Below, piece after piece: positions 6,987-59,377 of a stretch of DNA of 64,000 bases (positions are counted from its first letter, which is position 1; each line of letters starts with the position of its first letter). The DNA comes from Candidatus Pacearchaeota archaeon (GTDB lineage Archaea > Nanobdellota > Nanobdellia > Pacearchaeales > GW2011-AR1). Position numbers and translations under genes: made by a program. Location: the NCBI GenBank assembly GCA_019659125.1, contig JAIFVX010000002.1:96002-160001 (forward strand), given 5' to 3'. A model generated the notes under the pieces. The model was given only the letters and a program-made list of their open reading frames with translations, made no database searches and had not been told where the DNA came from.

Positions 6987-8096
6987 ATGAAGATAGGCTT
7001 CTTGATCACTTACTTTTACCCTAAGACTGGAGGGGCTGAGAATAATTGCTATTATCTGGCAAGAGAACTAGCAAAGAGGCATGAGGTCCACGTGTTCTGC
7101 TCTGGAGAGAAAGAATCCGATGAAGTCATTGAAGGAATTCAGGTCCATAGGAGCAAGGAGATTTTCAGAATAAAGTATTATCTTGGATTTTATCCTTCCA
7201 TCGTAAAGAAATTGCAGGCATACAAGCTTGATGTGCTCCATGTCCATGGGCTTGGGTTCGTACAGCATGATATTGCCATCAGGAAACTAAGAAAGGTGAA
7301 TAAAGACATAAAATTAGTATGTACCCCTCATGGGCCGTTCATGGCACTCGAGCATTATAATCTCATGGGGATGCTATTCAAAAAAATCTATACCCCATTC
7401 ATACGCTCAGCATTAAAGGACTATGATATACTTATCCAAGTCAATCCCTATCAATATCAATGGATGGCTAAGGAGTATGGAATCCCTAAGAGAAAAATAA
7501 AGTTCCTCCCGAATGGAATTGATGAAACTATGTTTACAGAGGCAAAGAAATACACTTTTAAGAACAGTTTTGTGATCTCATATCTTGGAAGGATACAAGA
7601 ATACAAAGGACTTGACCAAGTAATAAGGGCTCTTCCTGAACTTGCTAAAGTACAAAAAAATATTCTCTTTGTTATGATGGGAAAAGATGTAGGTGATAGG
7701 AAGCGATTAGAAAAGATTGCACTGGAATTGCATGTTGAAAAACATATACGCTTCATGGGAGAGGTTTCAGAGCAATTAAAGCGCGGATTGCTTGATGCTT
7801 CCGAAATATTCATTTTTCCCAGCCAGTGGGAGGCATTCGGCATTGTAGTATTAGAGGCAATGGCTCGAGGGAACTCGATCGTGTCCACAAACACTGAAGG
7901 TGGAAAATATCTCATTAAGGAAGGAGAGAATGGATATCTCTTCAGTTATGGAAACGAGAAGGAGTTCCTATCCTCCATGACAAGGATAATCCGAGATCCA
8001 AGACTAAGGAAGAAAATGCAGGATAACAACAGGAAGAAAGCCAGGAAATTCTTATGGAAGGATATTGCTAGGCAACTTGAAATGATTTATCGATGA
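6987..8096 (+). CDS. Glycosyltransferase family 4
   Basis: YFYPKTGGAENNCYYLARELAKRHEVHVF, PNGIDETMF, PSQWEAFGIVVLEAMARGNSIVST. Confidence 0.92.
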   Translation: MKIGFLITYFYPKTGGAENNCYYLARELAKRHEVHVFCSGEKESDEVIEGIQVHRSKEIFRIKYYLGFYPSIVKKLQAYKLDVLHVHGLGFVQHDIAIRKLRKVNKDIKLVCTPHGPFMALEHYNLMGMLFKKIYTPFIRSALKDYDILIQVNPYQYQWMAKEYGIPKRKIKFLPNGIDETMFTEAKKYTFKNSFVISYLGRIQEYKGLDQVIRALPELAKVQKNILFVMMGKDVGDRKRLEKIALELHVEKHIRFMGEVSEQLKRGLLDASEIFIFPSQWEAFGIVVLEAMARGNSIVSTNTEGGKYLIKEGENGYLFSYGNEKEFLSSMTRIIRDPRLRKKMQDNNRKKARKFLWKDIARQLEMIYR

Positions 8097-33794: not shown

Positions 33795-36494
33795 CTAGTT
33801 AAAATAGGGTATGTGTCGGCGGATGAAGGCACCCAGCATATTCAAGACAAATACTATTGCTGTGGCTCCAAGAATGAATTCCCAATCCAAGATTGAAAGT
33901 GTTGCCGTGCCGAAGAATGTGCTTAATGGGGTGTAGATGACCATGAGCTGCAAAAGGACCGAGGCAGCGACTGCAATGATGAGATACTTATTGCTAAACC
34001 ATCCAAGCTTGTATTCGGAGCGTATTGCTTGCAGTCTCGCAAGCTCCATCATGATTATAGCGGTAAACGCGATCGTCTGAATCTTGTCCAGATATAATGC
34101 ACCTGAAAGATTTGAATATTCTTTCATAGCCCACCAGAATAACCCAAGGACTGCGGCTGTAATCAATGTTGATACATACACTATGCTGAAAACCATTGAC
34201 CGGCTCATGATCCCTTCGGCGACTCTTCTCGGCGGTTGACCCATAAGATTGTGTGAGCTTGGGTCGACGCTTAATGCAAGAGCCGGAAGGCCGTCAGTGA
34301 CAAGATTAAGCCAGAGAAGCATGACAGCAGTCATGGGAAGAGGCCATCCGAACAGAATTGCGAATAAAATTACTGCAACCTCTCCCACATTGCATGACAA
34401 GAGATAATTGACAAATTTCTGGATGTTCTCGTAGATTCCCCTACCTTCTTCCACTGAATGCACAATGGTAACAAAATTATCATCCTGGAGAATCATGTCG
34501 CTCGCTTCTTTCGTAACATCGGTCCCCGTGATACCCATTGCTATGCCCAGGTTGGCCTTCTTGATCGCGGGAGCATCATTGACACCATCACCAGTCATAG
34601 CAACGATCTGTCCTTGTTTTTGCAAGAGCGTGACGATCGCCATCTTATGCTGAGGTTCGACTCGGGCAAAGATTGATGTCGTCTGGAGTATATTCATCTG
34701 CCCTTCCTCATTAAGTTGTGAGAATGCCGTGCCGTCCATTGAATTTCCCTCAATGCCTATCTCATGCCCTATGGCCTCTGCGGTATGAAGATTATCTCCT
34801 GTAATCATGATGACTCGAATTCCTGCTAACTTGCACATCTTCACTGCTTCAGGAACCTGCGCATGTGGCGGGTCAATCATTCCTTGCAGGCCTGCAAAGA
34901 TTAGCTTTGCCTCGTTCTTTTCTCGCAGCTTGTAATCCTTGTATGCGAATGCAAGAACTCTCAATGCCTTTGTCGCCAAACTGTCATTCAAGGCCATAAT
35001 TTCCTCTCTTTGTTTTTGGCTTAATATCCTCACTTTTCCATTGATAATGATCTTGTCACACTTTGCCAAAATCCTTTCCGGAGCGCCTTTGGTGAAGACA
35101 TAAGCCTTCAATGTCTTCTCGCTCTTGTGGATCGTGCTCATCATCTTTCGTACAGAATCAAAGGGTTCCTCTCCTATCTTTTTCCACTCTGCCTGAAGCT
35201 GTTCCTGATGCAGACCTGCTTTTTCTGCACTAACAAGCAGCGCAGCTTCCGTCGGGTCTCCTGTCACCGAGATTCTTTCTCCCTTTACCAGAGAAGCATT
35301 ATTGCAGAGCGCACCTATTCTAAAGACCATCATATCCTGGTCCTTTAGTTTTTTAGCATCCGCATGTATATCTCCGGTCAGCTCATATCCTGATCCATCG
35401 ACATCAAATAGAGTATTGTTTGTGTAGACTTTCCGCACGGTCATCTCATTCTTCGTCAGGGTTCCTGTCTTATCGCAGCATATCACGGTTGTCTCTCCAA
35501 GAGTCTCTACCGATGGAAGTTTCCTGATGAGGGCATTTTGCCTAAGCATCTTCATGACACCTATGGCAAGAGCGATGGTGACAATGGCTGGAAGCCCTTC
35601 AGGAACAGCGGCAACGGCAAGGGAAACGGCCGTCAAAAGCCAGTCTTTTGCCTCAAGGAAGAATCGTTGCACATCCCCATTCATAAGATGAGTGACATCA
35701 CCATCCTTGAATATGCCTACCGTGAAAATAATTGCACAAATCACCAACGTAGTTATGCCGATTCGATGACCGAGAACCTCAAGTTTTTTCTGAAGAGGAG
35801 TCTGCTCATCTTCAACGGATGCGATCATAGTTGCAATCTTACCTATTTGAGTATTCATGCCCGTGCCGACAACAATGGCCTTTGCCCTACCTCGAGTCAC
35901 AATGGTGCCTGAGAATATCATGTTTGAACGCTCGGCAAGTGGCGTGGCCTCTTGAAGGGCATCAAGCTTCTTCGATACAGGAACTGACTCTCCTGTAAGG
36001 GAAGCCTCTGAAACCTGGAGATTGAAATGTTCAAGAAGCCTGGAATCTGCAGGGATCTTTGACCCTTCCTCGACCATAATGATATCGCCAGGGACGAGTT
36101 CCTTGACTTCAATCATGGTTTGCTTCCCATCACGTAAGACAAGGGCCTGCAATCCTGAAAGTCTTTTCAGCGCTTCAATTGCCTTCTCAGCCTTATACTC
36201 CTGCATGAAGCCAAAGATTGCATTGAACAATAGTATGGCGAGGATGGATATGCTGTCAACAATCTCATCAGCTATGAGGGAGAGGACAAGTGCAAAGATA
36301 AGAATGTAGATGATAAAGCTCCTGAATTGATTGAGGAAAAGAATGACTGGATTTATCTTTTTCTTCGCTTTTAGCTCATTAAGCCCATACGTCGCTCTCC
36401 TTTTAACAACTTCCTGCGACGAAAGGCCTGTAGCAGGGCTGACTCCAAGGGAATAAAGTACATCCTCGGCTTTTTGTGTGTATGCTTCCATCAA
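33795..36494 (-). CDS. P-type cation ATPase, P2A (Ca2+)-like
   Basis: VICCDKTGTLTKNEMT, AVPEGLPAIVTIALAIGV, MITGDNLHTAEAIGHEIGI, MTGDGVNDAPAIKKANLGIAMG, LWLNLVTDGLPALALS. Confidence 0.92.
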   Translation of the reverse strand: MMEAYTQKAEDVLYSLGVSPATGLSSQEVVKRRATYGLNELKAKKKINPVILFLNQFRSFIIYILIFALVLSLIADEIVDSISILAILLFNAIFGFMQEYKAEKAIEALKRLSGLQALVLRDGKQTMIEVKELVPGDIIMVEEGSKIPADSRLLEHFNLQVSEASLTGESVPVSKKLDALQEATPLAERSNMIFSGTIVTRGRAKAIVVGTGMNTQIGKIATMIASVEDEQTPLQKKLEVLGHRIGITTLVICAIIFTVGIFKDGDVTHLMNGDVQRFFLEAKDWLLTAVSLAVAAVPEGLPAIVTIALAIGVMKMLRQNALIRKLPSVETLGETTVICCDKTGTLTKNEMTVRKVYTNNTLFDVDGSGYELTGDIHADAKKLKDQDMMVFRIGALCNNASLVKGERISVTGDPTEAALLVSAEKAGLHQEQLQAEWKKIGEEPFDSVRKMMSTIHKSEKTLKAYVFTKGAPERILAKCDKIIINGKVRILSQKQREEIMALNDSLATKALRVLAFAYKDYKLREKNEAKLIFAGLQGMIDPPHAQVPEAVKMCKLAGIRVIMITGDNLHTAEAIGHEIGIEGNSMDGTAFSQLNEEGQMNILQTTSIFARVEPQHKMAIVTLLQKQGQIVAMTGDGVNDAPAIKKANLGIAMGITGTDVTKEASDMILQDDNFVTIVHSVEEGRGIYENIQKFVNYLLSCNVGEVAVILFAILFGWPLPMTAVMLLWLNLVTDGLPALALSVDPSSHNLMGQPPRRVAEGIMSRSMVFSIVYVSTLITAAVLGLFWWAMKEYSNLSGALYLDKIQTIAFTAIIMMELARLQAIRSEYKLGWFSNKYLIIAVAASVLLQLMVIYTPLSTFFGTATLSILDWEFILGATAIVFVLNMLGAFIRRHIPYFN

Positions 36495-36754
36495 CAGAGA
36501 TCGAGATGATGCTCGTACATGAGTGCAACGTCCTTGTCATTTAACGCCTTGATAACCTGCTGTCGTATTTCTGAAGATGAAATTATTCCCCGCTGTTTCT
36601 TGACCCATTGCGTGATCTTCTTAGAAGTCTTTGCTGCAATGCTTTCTGACTTTTTTTCAGGATAATGACAATTCAGTGCTGCTGCGTAACAGGATGCATA
36701 TATCTTTCTTTCATCATATTTTTCTTCCTTGCCTTGTCGCTTTATGATTTCCAT
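36491..36754 (-). CDS. Stand-alone ATP-cone-like domain protein
   Basis: MEIIKRQGKEEKYDERKIYASCYAAAL...ISSSEIRQQVIKALNDKDVALMYEHH follows the ATP-cone pattern; start overlaps upstream stop by 1 nt. Confidence 0.65.
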   Translation of the reverse strand: MEIIKRQGKEEKYDERKIYASCYAAALNCHYPEKKSESIAAKTSKKITQWVKKQRGIISSSEIRQQVIKALNDKDVALMYEHHLDLC

Positions 36755-37461
36755 CAGTTCAAGTTGATGACTCCATTTGCAATTAATATGAGAAGCCATC
36801 CCAATGATATCAAGATGAGCCCTGTAAATAGCCTCATGTATGCCTTATTATCTTGTTTCCATTGCTGGATGTGTTGGAGCTTCGATCCGATGAGGACCAT
36901 GAAGAGTATCACCACGAGAGGCATGACGAATATTATGTTATAGATGATAAGCAACACAAATGCGCTCATATTGAAGTTCTGCGAAAGTAAAAGGGTTATT
37001 GCAAGGTAAGGTCCTCCCGTACAAGGAAGCTCTACTGAAGCAACAAAAACCCCGAGGAATACGACTGTACCCATAGTAAGATTTTTCATCTTGTTCTTTA
37101 TCATATCAGAGTATTTTACTGGAATCATGAGAGAGAATCCTTCACCATACCAGAAGTAATCCTTTATTTCTATGATTCCTGCAAACACCACTAAAAGACC
37201 GACAACAATTGAAATGTATTCTGCAATGACTATGGGAATTGCAGCCATAAACGATATAAGACCAAGACCATAGATAAAATAGGTGAGATAGACTGCTCCG
37301 ATGTAGATCAATCCTATTTTAAGAAGCTCTCCTTTTCTTTTTCCTACGAGAATTGTGGAAACAAGAAGGATAAGCACACCTATAGCACAAGGGTTGATGG
37401 AATCAACTGCAGCCGTGACAAGGACTGTTGCCAATGTGGGAAGCGTTATTGCTATGGCCAT
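36754..37461 (-). CDS. CcdA/DsbD-family thiol-disulfide transmembrane protein
   Basis: VDSINPCAIGVLILLVSTIL and ELPCTGGPYLAITLLL, paired membrane Cys of CcdA. Confidence 0.85.
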   Translation of the reverse strand: MAIAITLPTLATVLVTAAVDSINPCAIGVLILLVSTILVGKRKGELLKIGLIYIGAVYLTYFIYGLGLISFMAAIPIVIAEYISIVVGLLVVFAGIIEIKDYFWYGEGFSLMIPVKYSDMIKNKMKNLTMGTVVFLGVFVASVELPCTGGPYLAITLLLSQNFNMSAFVLLIIYNIIFVMPLVVILFMVLIGSKLQHIQQWKQDNKAYMRLFTGLILISLGWLLILIANGVINLN

Positions 37462-38162
37462 ACTTTTCCTCCTATCTCAATCCTCTTTCGTTGCATTGAA
37501 TAATCCCAATCATTGGCAGCCCAGCTGTCACATAGTAATGAGGTTGTTGATGCATTCGAGTCATCAAAAAGAATTATAATGCAGTCTCCTGGTGGCACTA
37601 ATGATGATGGATAGGGAACATACTCTTGAGGATTATCTATTTTCTTTCCATCGACGTAGACTTTTAGTGTTGCAGGATTGTTTCCGCAGGAATCTCCATT
37701 GCTAACAGCACGGAAGCCAGATTCCGTCGGATAACTTACCTGAGATGACGTCAGGCTGCCCCCAATGGTGGAGAAATAGTTGCCTAGAGAGATGGTATCC
37801 AATGAGGAAACAACTCCCTCAATATGGATCCTTCCGTCATTGTGACTATGGATGAGAGGAGAGCCAATCTTGTTATTCGGGAAATGTGCTTGTACTAACT
37901 CAAGCTTTTCCCCGCAGACAATCACTTCATAATCTGCATGCCAATGGACAGGGCCCTTTGTTTCTGAAGTGACGTTTTGGTAGACAGTATGGCCTGCAAG
38001 ATACAACGATGCGAGAACTGTTGGAATGACCATAATCCAGAACATTGTCCTCTTTTGATTTGGAGAAAATGAATCTTTCTTGAAAAGAGATATGATGACG
38101 GTTATAACCAGCAGTACTGAAGCAGCTTCTATATATATGACAGGATCAAACCAGTCAATCAT
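37452..38162 (-). CDS. Membrane-anchored extracytoplasmic protein with His-rich motif (HWHAD...IHSHNDGRIHIEG)
   Basis: Two N-terminal TM helices then soluble domain; GPVHWHADYEVIVCGEKLELV, PLIHSHNDGRIHIEGVV. Confidence 0.7.
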   Translation of the reverse strand: MIDWFDPVIYIEAASVLLVITVIISLFKKDSFSPNQKRTMFWIMVIPTVLASLYLAGHTVYQNVTSETKGPVHWHADYEVIVCGEKLELVQAHFPNNKIGSPLIHSHNDGRIHIEGVVSSLDTISLGNYFSTIGGSLTSSQVSYPTESGFRAVSNGDSCGNNPATLKVYVDGKKIDNPQEYVPYPSSLVPPGDCIIILFDDSNASTTSLLCDSWAANDWDYSMQRKRIEIGGKVWP

Positions 38163-38165
38163 TGA

Positions 38166-38246
38166 TTAGCAGAAGGGACAGCCCTCGTTATCCTCTTTCG
38201 TTATAGGCTTTTTCTTTTGCTTTTTTTTGCTCTTTTTTTCAGCCAT
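38166..38246 (-). CDS. 26-aa Lys-rich micropeptide ending CPFC
   Basis: MAEKKSKKKQKKKPITKEDNEGCPFC*; 3 nt upstream of the next ORF; TATA-like box about 28 nt upstream. Confidence 0.5.
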   Translation of the reverse strand: MAEKKSKKKQKKKPITKEDNEGCPFC

Positions 38247-38303: not shown

Positions 38304-39656
38304 ATGGGAAAATACGACTTGATTGTTGTCGGGGGTGGTACTGCTGGTTTGAGGACTTCGCTTTATGCTGCAGGTCACGGACACAGCACTGCATTGATAG
38401 ATCCTGGAATTCTAGGAGGGACATGCCTCAACACAGGATGCATTCCCACCAAAAGCATGCTTCATGCATCTCATCTTTTTCACTCCATCCAGAATGCAAA
38501 GATGTTCGGTATTGATGCAAGCGCAAAGATCAATTTCAAGGCACTTATGAAACGCGTACATGACATTGTACAAGATGGACAGGACCATATTGAGACCAGC
38601 ATTCACAATAAGAATTTAACCTTGATCAAAGGCAAGGCAACATTCATCTCAAAAGATTCTGTGCAGGTGAATGGACAGACACTCTCAGCAGATAAGTTCA
38701 TCATATGCACTGGAGCAAAGGCACGGGTCGCTCCTGTGAAGGGCTTGGAAAATGTAAAATATATGGTGAGTGATGATGTTCTTGATTTGCAATCGCTGCC
38801 GAAGTCTATTGCAATCATTGGGGGTGGATATATTGCAGTTGAGTTTGCGACGTTTTTCAGCGAACTAGGAACTAAAGTATACATCCTTGAACGGAATCCC
38901 CAGATTTTGAAGGATTTAGATGATGACATCATTCAACTTCTCAGTGAGCACTATGTTGAACAAGGCATCTCCCTACTTACACCAAGCGATATTGTTGAAG
39001 TAGGACAGGAAGGAGATATGAAAAAAATAACATACACTATGGGAAACAAGACACAAACCGTGAAGGTAGAACAGCTGCTCATCGCTACGGGAAGGGCTCC
39101 GAATACATTCAATCTTGGTCTTGATAAAGCTGGTGTTAAAGTAGGAGAGAAAGGTAATATCGAAGTTGAAGATAATTTGCAAACAACGAACAAGAATATC
39201 TATGCCATCGGTGATGTCACGGGAAGGGCTCCCTTTGCTCACGCGGCAAAACGGGAATCTCATATTGCATTAGTCAATGCATTGGAAGGAAAAAAGGAAA
39301 CTATGAACTTTGGCCTTGTGCCCTGGGCAATCTTTTCAGAACCAACTATCGGAGGCGTTGGGTTGAGTGAGAAACAAGCTAAAGAAAGAAAAGTAAATTA
39401 TGGTACGCTCAAGGCAAACTTCTCAAGAGCGGGAAGGGCAACGGTCATTGGAAACACTCTAGGATTTGCAAAAGTACTCTATGATAAGAAAAACAGGAAA
39501 ATTATCGGAAGCACTCTTATAGGGCCAAGGGCCGATGAATTGATCCATGAATTTGTTGCGCTCATCAATGCAGAAGCAAAGATTGACATCCTTAACGACA
39601 TCATTCACATCCATCCCACTTTATCAGAAGTGTTTGAAGCTCTCAAGGAAGCCTAA
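38304..39656 (+). CDS. lpdA: Dihydrolipoamide dehydrogenase (PDH E3) family flavoprotein
   Basis: DLIVVGGGTAGLRTS, GGTCLNTGCIPTKSMLHASH, HIHPTLSEVFEAL; start at MGKYDL. Confidence 0.88.
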   Translation: MGKYDLIVVGGGTAGLRTSLYAAGHGHSTALIDPGILGGTCLNTGCIPTKSMLHASHLFHSIQNAKMFGIDASAKINFKALMKRVHDIVQDGQDHIETSIHNKNLTLIKGKATFISKDSVQVNGQTLSADKFIICTGAKARVAPVKGLENVKYMVSDDVLDLQSLPKSIAIIGGGYIAVEFATFFSELGTKVYILERNPQILKDLDDDIIQLLSEHYVEQGISLLTPSDIVEVGQEGDMKKITYTMGNKTQTVKVEQLLIATGRAPNTFNLGLDKAGVKVGEKGNIEVEDNLQTTNKNIYAIGDVTGRAPFAHAAKRESHIALVNALEGKKETMNFGLVPWAIFSEPTIGGVGLSEKQAKERKVNYGTLKANFSRAGRATVIGNTLGFAKVLYDKKNRKIIGSTLIGPRADELIHEFVALINAEAKIDILNDIIHIHPTLSEVFEALKEA

Positions 39657-54893: not shown

Positions 54894-55432
54894 ATGAATG
54901 TAAGTGCTATGGCAAGGCCGATGATGCTGACGATATCGCCTACTGCAGTGACTAGAGGGCCCATAATATTATTGGGATCGTTTCCGCGCTTGAAAAGAAA
55001 ATAGGTAGTGAATAAGGTGATTGGGATTTCAAGGACGTTCGCAACCAGCCCAGCGACTAATGCAAGCATCATCAAGCTAACATACCATACATGGAAAAGA
55101 ATATACGTAAAGAGCGTGGCGAGTACTCCTAAAAAGAATGATAGAAAGAGTGTAAGTATAATCGATGCTGCTATGTTTCCTCGAATGATTTTTGTATTGA
55201 GTTGTCCGGGTTTTATGACTCCAAGAAAAAGCCCCGAGGTAATTCGCGAGACAAATGAACCTCCTATGTCTCCGCGGAGATCAAGAAGCCCTGGAAGGAT
55301 AATGAGCATTCCGGGAAGTAGTTCAAGCTTGTTCGTATAGAGCGCAAGGAGCGATCCTGCAATGATTCCCCCTATAACTGAGATAAGCTGAGAAGAGAAT
55401 ATTTCCTTAAAGTTCTTATCAATAAACCCCAT
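54890..55432 (-). CDS. MgtE/SLC41-like half-size permease A
   Basis: LLPGMLIILPGLLDLRGDIGGSFVSRITSGLFLG and DPNNIMGPLVTAVGDIVSIIGLAIAL. Confidence 0.78.
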   Translation of the reverse strand: MGFIDKNFKEIFSSQLISVIGGIIAGSLLALYTNKLELLPGMLIILPGLLDLRGDIGGSFVSRITSGLFLGVIKPGQLNTKIIRGNIAASIILTLFLSFFLGVLATLFTYILFHVWYVSLMMLALVAGLVANVLEIPITLFTTYFLFKRGNDPNNIMGPLVTAVGDIVSIIGLAIALTFI

Positions 55433-56643
55433 TATGTAATCTCCAACATAAGATGGCCTGGATCCTCTATAAACATCTTAAGAGATTCCAAGAAGCGAGC
55501 TGCCTGCGCTCCATCGATAATCCGGTGATCAAAGGTAAGCGAGAGAGGAAGCACCTTAGTTTTTCCACGGTCAAATATTCTTCCTGTTCCAAGGATGGCT
55601 GCCTCTCCAGGATTAATGATTGGTGTCGCATAGGTTCCTCCTATAGACCCATAGTTTGTTATCGTAAATGTGCCTCCCTGCATCTCTTCAAGTTTTATTG
55701 TCCTTGCCCTCGCTTTCTCTGCAAGTGCAGATATTTCCTGTGCAAGTTCAACAATGCTTTTAGTATCGGCGTTTTTTAGAACTGGAACCATCAGGCCGAG
55801 CTCTGTCTCTACTGCAATTCCTATATTGAAATATTTCTTGATAATAATCTCTTCCCCTTCTATTGAGGAATTAAGTATTGGATTCTCATGCAATGCAGCC
55901 ACGATTGCCTTGATTATGAAAGGCATTAATGTCAGCTTAACGCCTTTCTTTTCTAGCGATCCTTTCTCTTTTTCTTTAATAGAATAAAGCTGAGAGACAT
56001 CAACATCTTCCATTGCAGTCACTTGTGCTGTCTCTGCCAAAGACTTTACCATATTGATAGCAATAGTCTTTCGTATTCCCTTGAGCGGAATTCTCTCTGT
56101 ATACCCATGATCATCATACTTTTTCTGTACAGGAACAAGTTGTTGAGGAATTGCTTCTGGCTTTTGCTTTTCTATATCAGTTTTTATGATTCTTTTTTCA
56201 GGTCCAGAACCTTTCATTCCATGAAGATCTACATTCATTTCGGAAGCTAGCTTCCGTACTGCTGGAGATGCAAGAATCTTCTTTGATTGCTGGATTCCTT
56301 TCATGGTTTGCGCCTGAGGCTTATCCTCGACCTCGTCGGGAGCCTCTTCAAGTTGTCCGACGACAGACTTTCCTTTTACTGGTTCTTTAACAGTTACTTT
56401 TTCTCCTTGTACGCCAAGAGTTACTAATGTTGATCCTACTTTTACCGTATCTCCTGCCTTATAGTGAAGTTTTATGACCACTCCTGATCGCGGGGATGGA
56501 AGATCGACAACTGCCTTGTCCGTTTCCACCTCAACAAGTGGTTGATCTTCTTTTACAGAATCTCCTTCATTTACAAGCCATTTTACAATCTCTCCTTCGG
56601 TAATTCCTTCTCCAACATCAGGAAGTTTGAACTCAAATGGCAT
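55432..56643 (-). CDS. 2-oxoacid dehydrogenase complex E2 (dihydrolipoamide acyltransferase)
   Basis: Lipoyl domain VEVETDKAVVDLPSPRSGVV; PSBD ASPAVRKLASEMNVDL; catalytic LTFDHRIIDGAQAARFL. Confidence 0.93.
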   Translation of the reverse strand: MPFEFKLPDVGEGITEGEIVKWLVNEGDSVKEDQPLVEVETDKAVVDLPSPRSGVVIKLHYKAGDTVKVGSTLVTLGVQGEKVTVKEPVKGKSVVGQLEEAPDEVEDKPQAQTMKGIQQSKKILASPAVRKLASEMNVDLHGMKGSGPEKRIIKTDIEKQKPEAIPQQLVPVQKKYDDHGYTERIPLKGIRKTIAINMVKSLAETAQVTAMEDVDVSQLYSIKEKEKGSLEKKGVKLTLMPFIIKAIVAALHENPILNSSIEGEEIIIKKYFNIGIAVETELGLMVPVLKNADTKSIVELAQEISALAEKARARTIKLEEMQGGTFTITNYGSIGGTYATPIINPGEAAILGTGRIFDRGKTKVLPLSLTFDHRIIDGAQAARFLESLKMFIEDPGHLMLEIT

Positions 56644-57610
56644 TCTTCATCACCTTCTCTATCGCATTAATGATTCGTGCCTGATTAACAAGATACATGT
56701 CTTCATGTCGAGGCAAAGGGACAACAACATCGTAGCCTGTAACACGTTCTATAGGAGATTCTAAACTGTAAAGAGCTTTTTCATTAATTCGTGCGATAAT
56801 TTCCGCTGCAAATCCATTATTCCTTTGGGCTTCCTGTACAATCACTACTTTTCCTGTTTTCTTCACTGAACTGATGATGGTTTCTGTATCAAGAGGCGAC
56901 AAAGTGCGGAGGTCAATCACCTCAACATCGATATCAGACATATGCTGGACCGCTTCAAGAGATATTTTTAGAGAAGCACCATAGGTAATAAGAGTAACAT
57001 CATTTCCAGGTTTGACAATCTTAGCCTTACCTAATGGAATCATATACTCTTCCTCAGGAACTTCCTCTTTTATCGCTCGGTAAACTCTCTTAGGCTCAAA
57101 GAAAATGACTGGATTAGGATCTCGCATTGCTGAGATAAGAAGACCTTTTGCATCATAGGGTGTTGAAGGCATGACTACTTTTATTCCAGGGGTATGGATG
57201 AAATAGGTTTCAGGTGATTCTGAATGATGTTCTAATGCTCGAATTCCCCCACCAATAGGACATCTGACTACTAAAGGAACTGTATATCGTCCTCGTGACC
57301 TGTGCCTAAGCCTAGAAGCATGACAAATTAATTGATCTATCGCTGGGAAGACAAATCCTTCAAACTGTATTTCTGCAACGGGCTTCATGCCTCCTGCAGC
57401 CATTCCTATGCAAGTACCTACAATTCCAGATTCAGCAAGAGGAGAATCAATGACTCTTTCATTTCCATACAATGCTGCAAGACCATCAGTCACTCGAAAT
57501 ACCCCTCCATCTTCTCCCACGTCTTCTCCTATGAGAATAATACTTTTGTCCTTTTCCATCTCTTGCTTAAGTGCAAGATTGATCGCCTCCACCATATTAA
57601 GCCGTGGCAT
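56633..57610 (-). CDS. pdhB: 2-oxoacid (pyruvate) dehydrogenase E1 beta
   Basis: LIGEDVGEDGGVFRVTDGL, DSPLAESGIVGTCIGMA; start at MPRLNM preceded by ggagg. Confidence 0.93.
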   Translation of the reverse strand: MPRLNMVEAINLALKQEMEKDKSIILIGEDVGEDGGVFRVTDGLAALYGNERVIDSPLAESGIVGTCIGMAAGGMKPVAEIQFEGFVFPAIDQLICHASRLRHRSRGRYTVPLVVRCPIGGGIRALEHHSESPETYFIHTPGIKVVMPSTPYDAKGLLISAMRDPNPVIFFEPKRVYRAIKEEVPEEEYMIPLGKAKIVKPGNDVTLITYGASLKISLEAVQHMSDIDVEVIDLRTLSPLDTETIISSVKKTGKVVIVQEAQRNNGFAAEIIARINEKALYSLESPIERVTGYDVVVPLPRHEDMYLVNQARIINAIEKVMKNAI

Positions 57611-58313
57611 AATTTTCCTCCTGTAACCCAAAAACATGCTTGAAATTTGACACCAACTTCTTTTTTACCTGTTCAAGAGGAAGCTTATAGCCTACAATAT
57701 CGCTCATGAATATTGGCTGAACTTCACTGGCTGGCCAACCACATGGATCAATGAGATGGAAATAATGCTTATCTTCCCTGTTTACATTTAAAGAAAATCC
57801 ATGATGGGTGTAAATATCATCTCCTAACAATGACACCTTTATCCCTTTCGTGCAGAGGACATAATTCTTTCCGGCATTTCTATACCAGGTTGCTCTATAG
57901 GGCTTGTCTGTCGAGGGATTCTGTACATCATAGCGACTAACGGGGATGTCAAAATCACGGGCAGTGAGAATCATCGTCTCTTCAAGCTTTTTCATGAAAT
58001 TAAGAATTCCACCATATTCTTTGATGTTCATAATAGTATACCCTATAAGCTGACCTGGCCCTAAGTACGCTGCACCGCCTCCTCTATCACTCTGGAAAAA
58101 TTCTATTCCTTTTTGCGCAAGCTCTTCTTGAGTAACGTGCAACTTATTACTCTCCTTATTAGATCCAAAGGTTATCGTCGGTGAGTGCTCCACCAGTAGA
58201 AGCCTATCTCCTATCTTTCTTTGTTTTCTCTTCTCAAAGAGGTCATGCTGGATTTCAAGCGCTCTGGAATAATTCATAAATCCAATATCTTGAACAAGAA
58301 AATCCAAGCTCAT
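57597..58313 (-). CDS. lipB: Lipoate-protein ligase B / octanoyltransferase
   Basis: LLLVEHSPTITFGSNKES, DRGGGAAYLGPGQLIGYTI, HGFSLNVNRE...HLIDPCGW. Confidence 0.88.
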   Translation of the reverse strand: MSLDFLVQDIGFMNYSRALEIQHDLFEKRKQRKIGDRLLLVEHSPTITFGSNKESNKLHVTQEELAQKGIEFFQSDRGGGAAYLGPGQLIGYTIMNIKEYGGILNFMKKLEETMILTARDFDIPVSRYDVQNPSTDKPYRATWYRNAGKNYVLCTKGIKVSLLGDDIYTHHGFSLNVNREDKHYFHLIDPCGWPASEVQPIFMSDIVGYKLPLEQVKKKLVSNFKHVFGLQEENYATA

Positions 58314-59377
58314 GCCACCTCTCCCTTTACGCTTTCCCTTTCTTCTTTCAGGTCAGGAGTAAGCTTGTCATACATGTAGTCAAACATTTCTTCAGGTTTT
58401 ATAGGCTGAATGGATTCGAACTTGGTTATGGCATCCTGCACTAACTGCTCAGCTTTTTGCGCAACTTCTTTTTCATATGAATCTGAGAACATTTTCTTCT
58501 TTACCATATATTTCTTTAGTCTTTCTATAGGGTCCTTGGATTCCCACTTTTTAACCTCATTCTCACTTCGGTATTTCTTAGCATCATCCGATGTGGTATG
58601 ATCTCCCATTCTATACGTAAAACATTCAATAAATGTCGGTCCTTTGCCATTCCGAGCTTTCTTTAACGCATCTTGTACTGCACTATAAACTGCAAACACA
58701 TCATTGCCATCAACTTGGATCCCTTCAAATCCATACGCAATCGCTTTCTGCGCCAGGGATTGCGCTGCAGTCTGTTCTTTTACAGGAACAGATATGGCAT
58801 ATTGATTATTCTGGCAGATAAATACTGTAGGTGCCTTAAAAACTCCGGCAAAGTTCATAGCTTCATGAAAGTCTCCTTCTGAGGTCGCTCCATCTCCAAA
58901 ATATACAAGGGTAGCTCCTTCCTTCTTATAGAACTTAAACGACATAGCCATACCTACTGCATGAGGCAAGTGACCTCCCACCGTGATCGCAACAGGAAAC
59001 ATATTTACGTTTTTTGGTATATCCATGCCCCTTTCATCCCCTGCCCAGTATTGAAATAACTTTTCTAAGGGCATTGCTCGTGTAATGAACACTCCATGTT
59101 CTCTGAATGCTGGAAATGCCATATCGTGTTCCTGCATCTGGATCGCTGAAGGAATCTGACAGGCTTCCTGTCCCTTCACAGAAGCAAATGTCCCTATCCT
59201 TCCCTGCCTTTGCAATTTTACAGCCTTATCATCAAATGTTCTTGTAAGTATCATGAGTTCATACATTCTTTTTATAATTGCAGGAGAAAGGGATGGAATC
59301 AACTTTTCATCTGCAATTCCCTGTTCATTTAAAATTTGCAGATAGGGAACCTCAAATTTTTCAATAATTTTCCTCAT
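58310..59377 (-). CDS. pdhA: 2-oxoacid (pyruvate) dehydrogenase E1 alpha
   Basis: TPP motif YFGDGATSEGDFHEAMNFAGVFKAPTVFICQNN; YRMGDHTTSDDAKKYR; SD-like gaggtga upstream of ATG. Confidence 0.93.
   Translation of the reverse strand: MRKIIEKFEVPYLQILNEQGIADEKLIPSLSPAIIKRMYELMILTRTFDDKAVKLQRQGRIGTFASVKGQEACQIPSAIQMQEHDMAFPAFREHGVFITRAMPLEKLFQYWAGDERGMDIPKNVNMFPVAITVGGHLPHAVGMAMSFKFYKKEGATLVYFGDGATSEGDFHEAMNFAGVFKAPTVFICQNNQYAISVPVKEQTAAQSLAQKAIAYGFEGIQVDGNDVFAVYSAVQDALKKARNGKGPTFIECFTYRMGDHTTSDDAKKYRSENEVKKWESKDPIERLKKYMVKKKMFSDSYEKEVAQKAEQLVQDAITKFESIQPIKPEEMFDYMYDKLTPDLKEERESVKGEVA

Follow-up and report, generated by a model that had tools for sequence, protein, structure and literature searches.

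CcdA and DsbD carriers, such as TtCcdA (PDB 5VKV), are small polytopic membrane proteins with one PC-motif cysteine in transmembrane helix 1 (TM1) and another in TM4, and they are partnered by thioredoxin-like proteins (TlpA, ResA, or CcmG) or heme proteins; ArsG- and Cad-type permeases belong to the same superfamily. ATP-cones are part of NrdR and of the reductases NrdA, NrdD, and NrdJ. C-terminal cysteine pairs act as redox tails in the large subunit of ribonucleotide reductase (RNR), in thioredoxin reductase, and in MerA, and glutaredoxin active sites read CPYC or CPFC. Here, we analyze a 64,000-nucleotide stretch of a Candidatus Pacearchaeota genome (GCA_019659125.1, contig JAIFVX010000002.1, positions 96,002 to 160,001; hereafter the window) in which a CcdA-like carrier is encoded next to a lysine-rich micropeptide ending in CPFC, a membrane protein with a Cys/His domain (the HWH protein), and a stand-alone ATP-cone protein. 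We hold with very high confidence, from comparison of related loci, that these four genes are the core of a real, conserved module. The function we favor, with a probability of about 0.5, is a CcdA-centered transmembrane dithiol relay that would feed an extracytoplasmic, probably metal-binding Cys/His domain.

The locus resembles each of these systems in some features and differs from it in others. The carrier has the two PC motifs of CcdA and DsbD, but its family resembles SfLAP and ArsG before DsbD_TM, and its fixed partners are the HWH and ATP-cone proteins. Weak NCBIfam and Pfam matches connect it to the ArsG- and Cad-type permeases, whereas the core comes without an arsenic or cadmium gene set. 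The ATP-cone protein matches PF03477 and keeps the K-R-x-G-x-x-E...K signature, yet unlike NrdR and the reductases it has neither a Zn ribbon nor a catalytic domain and is genetically tied to a membrane carrier. The peptide has the flexible terminal dithiol and the CPFC/CPYC-like motif of the redox tails and glutaredoxins, but it is a free-standing, lysine-rich chain (17–60 amino acids across loci) without a thioredoxin fold. Operons combining VKOR, a thioredoxin-like lipoprotein, and CcdA are common in this archaeal class, at times with DoxX-like or peroxiredoxin-like neighbors. A search of open-access literature found no paper naming CcdA with an ATP-cone or Patescibacteria with an ATP-cone, and one review mentions VKOR, CcdA, and archaea together, though, judging by its abstract, not as such a system. 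We likewise found no description of a system with this composition, in line with what a previous sequence-only reading of the window had stated, and the module is likely new to the literature.

The locus and its recurrence in DPANN and CPR

The source genome is archaeal, with a size of 809 kb in five contigs. The sequence-only reading had proposed a redox/metal operon of five consecutive minus-strand open reading frames (ORFs), and all five are present in the claimed order and spacing. The features of the locus are as follows.

38286–38258, minus strand: TATA-type promoter element AAGAAATGTTTATATAGTTTCCTATAATT (29-mer), 12–40 nt upstream of the peptide start and identical in the sister genome
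38246–38166, minus strand: CxFC-tail micropeptide of 26 amino acids, MAEKKSKKKQKKKPITKEDNEGCPFC, lysine-rich and ending in CPFC
38162–37452, minus strand: HWH protein, with two TM helices and a predicted extracytoplasmic Cys/His domain; in 80/80 loci
37461–36754, minus strand: CcdA-like (SfLAP/DsbD_TM-type) membrane protein with PC motifs in TM1 and TM4
36754–36491, minus strand: stand-alone ATP-cone protein of 87 amino acids (PF03477, E-value 1.4e-9); in 70/80 loci
36491–33795, minus strand: P2A-type (SERCA/PMR1-like) cation ATPase, accessory (TIGR01522/TIGR01116)
38304–39656, plus strand: flavin adenine dinucleotide (FAD) disulfide reductase of the dihydrolipoyl dehydrogenase type, divergent from the peptide (TIGR01350 above cut-off)

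A gap of 3 nt separates the peptide from the HWH gene, which overlaps the CcdA-like gene by 10 nt; the CcdA-like and ATP-cone genes overlap by 1 nt. The overlap between the ATP-cone and ATPase genes is 4 nt if the ATPase starts at TTG 36494 and 1 nt if it starts at ATG 36491, the latter being the more likely start. From what is known of archaeal promoters, the 29-mer would act as the promoter. The sister genome (L006, a Candidatus Pacearchaeota assembly, whose contig also appears as L040) has the five genes in the same order throughout, with phosphoglycerate kinase on one side and the flavoprotein on the other. Between the five genes, no terminator-like site was found on the minus strand. Given the shared 29-mer, the lack of terminator-like sites between the genes, and the gene order kept in the sister genome, co-transcription of the five genes is likely.

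Using the CcdA-like alignment as bait, we gathered 80 loci, of which 58 are from DPANN archaea (Woesearchaeota, Pacearchaeota, Aenigmatarchaeota, Micrarchaeota, Diapherotrites, and other DPANN) and 22 from bacteria of the candidate phyla radiation (CPR; Levyibacteriota, Saccharibacteria, and other CPR). Partners were detected with iterated hidden Markov models, each seeded with the three or four sequences from the window and its closest relatives. The bait favors close CcdA relatives, and the resulting fractions describe this subfamily rather than all CcdA proteins. The HWH gene lies directly upstream of the CcdA-like gene in every locus, the ATP-cone gene closely follows it in 70, and a lysine-rich peptide ending in C-x-[FY]-C is found in 61 (DPANN 45/58, CPR 16/22). 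The association therefore clearly extends beyond this genome, which the sequence-only reading had set as the point to check. In the converse search, covering 382 genomes of the class, 24 of 26 ATP-cone matches with E < 1e-20 were directly downstream of a CcdA match; one of the other two (G309) is close to the start of a contig, and its CcdA is likewise truncated by a contig end, and the second (G304) is located elsewhere. Weaker ATP-cone matches were mostly ORFs of NrdR or reductase length.

A tree of 71 CcdA-like sequences, drawn from metagenome bins, has a well-supported clade of 30 that comprises all the CPR bacteria and about 10 archaea, and three changes of domain suffice to explain it. 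Since this gene tree mixes both domains in one clade, it suggests, with the caution that metagenome bins call for, a few transfers of a useful unit between domains.

Components of the core module

The cysteines of the CcdA-like carrier, C25 (NPCAIG, TM1) and C147 (LPCTG, TM4), are invariant in 71/71 sequences. All 71 match SfLAP in Pfam and 24 match DsbD_TM, the window protein itself being just under the SfLAP cut-off; 25/71 match the ArsG permease model and one matches the Cad resistance family, with the NCBIfam DsbD and ArsG matches being weak. Alignment of the family by hhalign with a canonical CcdA (from L053, itself matching TtCcdA) gave a P-value of 1.9e-4 and a probability of 47%, with both cysteine regions and the TM helices aligned. 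In our Pfam survey and motif scan, heme lyase, ResB/CcsA, and CcmG/ResA were not among the neighbors, and the locus thus does not represent a cytochrome c maturation (CcdA-ResAB/CcsBA) set.

Eight residues of the HWH protein (H73, H75, C83, H105, H107, H113, E115, and C159) are unvarying in 64/64 CcdA-linked orthologues, and in stand-alone HWH paralogues C83 is mostly lost and H113 and E115 are often lost. The loop between TM1 and TM2 carries an average charge of +3.1 and the flanks carry −3.4 and −1.8, which by the positive-inside rule places the domain outside the membrane. The AlphaFold2 model (predicted local distance difference test score, pLDDT, 95) has a pair of TM helices and a mainly-beta domain that is well defined and whose secondary structure is not that of a thioredoxin fold. 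No match above noise was found among Pfam, NCBIfam, and PDB sequences; a Foldseek search of the PDB returned nothing at E ≤ 0.001 (best hit, transcobalamin beta domain, E-value 0.35), and a single-sequence search of the genome contigs gave no matches. HWH paralogues cluster with DUF411, ArsR-type regulators, a YHS-domain P-type ATPase, and cupredoxins. These copper-type contexts, together with the invariant His, Asp, and Glu residues and the frequency of VIT1 among the archaeal neighbors surveyed, are indirect evidence for a probable role of the HWH protein with metal. A second HWH-domain gene is present within or just after the core operon in four loci (L083, 8130–8822; L111, 7086–7748; L113, 6996–7520; L068, 4269–4889).

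The micropeptide is a real, conserved coding sequence. Across its 27 codons, including the stop, the window and the sister genome differ by 10 synonymous changes and one non-synonymous change, a pattern indicating that the peptide is under purifying selection. We counted ATG-started ORFs of 14–110 amino acids with at least 20% Lys/Arg and ending in X-x-[FY]-X within 829 kb of related loci (80 in total): 53 had X = Cys and at most two had any other given residue, while the internal C-x-[FY]-C motif occurred only four times. The pattern was chosen after the first examples had been seen, and the weight of this result lies in the residue controls rather than in the raw count. CEFC, CPFC, and CAFC are the most frequent tails, and the peptide gene is positioned directly upstream of the HWH gene, downstream of the ATP-cone gene, or beside the ATPase gene. 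The peptide is probably cytosolic because it has no signal peptide. Several longer CxFC peptides have extra cysteine pairs and resemble small zinc-binding modules; in nine loci (L060, L063, L069, L075, L077, L088, L097, L108, and L117) CxFC peptides are fused to TRASH/FCS/LIM-like, Cys-rich, zinc-ribbon-like stretches.

PF03477 is the only Pfam match of the window ATP-cone protein (38.7 bits against a cut-off of 25.8) and is found in 54/55 family members, and its sequence relatives in the PDB are NrdR and NrdD chains. The signature segment is kept (K5 and K17 in 55/55, R6 in 51/55, and E11 in 53/55), and we take its Lys/Glu/Lys residues to be those that contact the nucleotide. Nucleotide gating, for which these conserved residues are the evidence, is speculative. 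A redox or metal role for C22 was considered and dropped, as this cysteine is present in only 28/55 members. The sequence-only reading had described an ATP-cone with neither an RNR nor an NrdR partner; the protein does stand alone, but the absence of both from the genome had to be abandoned, since another contig encodes a class I/II-type RNR with a separate NrdR-like ATP-cone protein upstream (G000:C1:38516-41019). NrdR has been described as rare in archaea (PMC9110341).

A further 20 members of the same CcdA subfamily (L148–L167) are encoded without HWH or ATP-cone genes, and with VKOR and a thioredoxin-like lipoprotein instead; the output of these operons is a disulfide-forming pair, in contrast to the HWH and ATP-cone proteins of the window module. 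A motif scan recovered VKOR in 15/20 and a WCxxC protein in 19/20 of these loci, several of the remainder being visible by eye, and Pfam confirmed VKOR in two. The CxFC peptide is present upstream in 4/20; in L150 a flavoprotein is divergent from it, exactly as in the window, and in L162 and L167 a P-type ATPase lies beside the operon. In L064 (approximately 7562–8047, minus strand), a VKOR carries a fused, C-terminal, lysine-rich KVCEFC tail. The simplest reading is that CcdA is a hub, with the CxFC peptide on its side and with HWH and VKOR plus thioredoxin as alternative extracytoplasmic ends. The ATP-cone accompanies HWH alone (70/80 versus 0/20), suggesting that whatever it senses concerns the HWH output.

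A candidate thiol relay and its alternatives

In the relay that we favor, the lysine-rich peptide would dock at the membrane or at CcdA, exchange electrons by way of the CxFC at its end, and so serve as a minimal substitute for thioredoxin or glutaredoxin. CcdA would pass two electrons to C83/C159 of the HWH protein, which may use them to hold both its own thiols and a metal bound by the His cluster (probably copper) in reduced form, for handling or detoxification. Speculatively, the ATP-cone would report ATP/dATP or the energy state to the carrier, and the P2A ATPase would be a lineage-specific ion-export partner. Several lines of evidence argue for this relay: the HWH–CcdA–cone order in DPANN and CPR; the position of 24 of the 26 strong ATP-cone matches of the class directly after this CcdA; the invariant CcdA cysteines, aligned with those of canonical CcdA; the invariant residues and topology of HWH; the CxFC statistics and the selection on the peptide; the retention of the peptide with CcdA when VKOR and thioredoxin replace HWH; the CEFC tail fused to VKOR in L064; the FAD disulfide reductase beside the core; and the copper-type surroundings of the HWH paralogues described above. 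The sequence-only reading was right to see one module with a CcdA-type carrier at its center and to include both the CPFC peptide and the His-rich domain. Its proposal that one of the two is a client holds less well for the peptide, which tracks CcdA rather than the His-rich domain and is thus more likely a cytosolic partner of CcdA than an extracytoplasmic client. The fuller proposal, of a cross-domain DPANN/CPR system in which the ATP-cone gates the relay, the CxFC peptide replaces thioredoxin, and the path ends on a new Cys/His metal domain, is tentative and, taken as a whole, doubtful.

Some observations weigh against the relay. The peptide is absent from 19/80 loci and the ATP-cone from 10/80 (some of which end at contig edges), CcdA could be served by the one thioredoxin of the window genome with no need of the peptide, and the model of the CcdA-like protein is of modest quality (pLDDT 69), its best PDB fold match being TtCcdA 5VKV at a weak Foldseek E-value of 0.5. 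The main rival, possible if less probable than the relay, is metal trafficking or efflux, in which the cysteines bind metal and relay no electrons: the CxFC peptide and its TRASH/LIM-like relatives would be cytosolic metal chaperones, the CcdA/ArsG-like protein a permease for metal or metal-thiol, and HWH the extracytoplasmic acceptor. The peptides fused to zinc-ribbon-like stretches, the ArsG and Cad matches of the carrier family, the His cluster of HWH, and neighbors including VIT1, CitMHS/ArsB-like transporters, P-type ATPases, and cupredoxins are all consistent with this. It fits poorly, however, with two invariant PC motifs at the positions that they occupy in CcdA/DsbD, with the same CcdA subfamily in VKOR and thioredoxin operons (a plain thiol-redox setting), and with the FAD disulfide reductases that recurrently adjoin the core. 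The thiol relay is the best reading and metal trafficking its main rival, and both may be partly true.

An improbable alternative is disulfide quality control, with HWH as a folded substrate or isomerase-like partner whose C83–C159 disulfide is kept reduced by CcdA and whose His cluster is structural only. The invariance of C83 and C159 and the replacement of HWH by VKOR/thioredoxin in sister operons would suit it, but a purely structural role does not easily account for five invariant His plus Asp/Glu, and the HWH model has no thioredoxin fold. It is very unlikely that an RNR regulation or reduction system has been split here into the ATP-cone and the CxxC-tail peptide: RNR does have an ATP-cone and a C-terminal Cys-pair tail, the cone here is homologous to those of NrdR and NrdD, and the genome encodes a class I/II RNR and an NrdR-like gene, but these two genes form a pair on a different contig, no RNR was seen in the neighbor survey, and the peptide also accompanies VKOR-type operons that have no cone. 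The last alternative, that small genomes have brought these neighbors together by accident or hitchhiking, is hardly credible and, for the core, refuted by the adjacency of HWH (80/80) and cone (70/80), which holds in two domains of life, gene overlaps included; the order kept in the sister genome, the recurrence of the core in both domains, and purifying selection on the peptide likewise place the arrangement beyond chance. It keeps some force for the ATPase and the archaeal flavoprotein, the P2A ATPase being rare beside the DPANN core and the flavoprotein here probably being a pyruvate dehydrogenase E3.

Neighboring genes and significance

The ATPase had been called P2A-like, and both its profile and its ion-site motifs (PEGL, NVGEV, and NLVTDG in TM4, TM5, and TM6) support a P2A, Ca2+-type enzyme: TIGR01522 and TIGR01116 match with E < 1e-210, just under their cut-offs (702.4 versus 703.4 bits for TIGR01116). 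Its position is the same in the sister genome. Among CPR loci with sufficient flanking sequence, most have a P2A-type ATPase (at least 40% identity) beside the core, and only a few archaeal loci do; it is therefore a lineage-dependent accessory that in archaea falls outside the cross-lineage core, contrary to the membership proposed for it earlier. In three loci close to the window's CcdA (L041, L045, and L049), a CitMHS/ArsB-like transporter lies directly downstream of the core, at the place of the window's ATPase. In many Woesearchaeota loci (L052–L059, L069, L088, and others), a VIT1-family transporter is encoded directly 3′ of the peptide, followed by cupredoxins and more HWH paralogues; VIT1 was the commonest Pfam family among the archaeal neighbors surveyed (12/90 proteins).

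In at least 12 CPR loci, the gene directly after the core encodes an FAD disulfide reductase; eight archaeal loci close to the clade of the window have such a gene in divergent orientation. The window also encodes, at 55432–59377 on the minus strand, pyruvate dehydrogenase-type E1 alpha, E1 beta, lipoyl E2, and a lipoate-ligase/octanoyltransferase-like ORF with no E3, a set that is noteworthy for a sub-megabase archaeon. Since the flavoprotein at 38304–39656 is the sole lipoamide-dehydrogenase-type gene in the genome, it is probably the E3 of this pyruvate dehydrogenase, 16 kb away, perhaps also serving the module as a possible electron donor. A six-gene unit including the flavoprotein was dropped for this genome on the same grounds.

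DPANN and CPR are reported to have ancestrally lacked electron transport chains (PMC7507113), and the module is kept in both of these numerous, tiny-genome lineages despite this. Through it, three components acquire a testable role: the unnamed HWH domain, a micropeptide class that is widespread but tends to be overlooked by gene finders, and an ATP-cone whose link is to a membrane protein rather than to RNR. The VKOR-KVCEFC protein of L064 is a natural fusion that joins a membrane thiol enzyme with the tail of the micropeptide, and if the peptide does carry electrons, it would be among the smallest known carriers.

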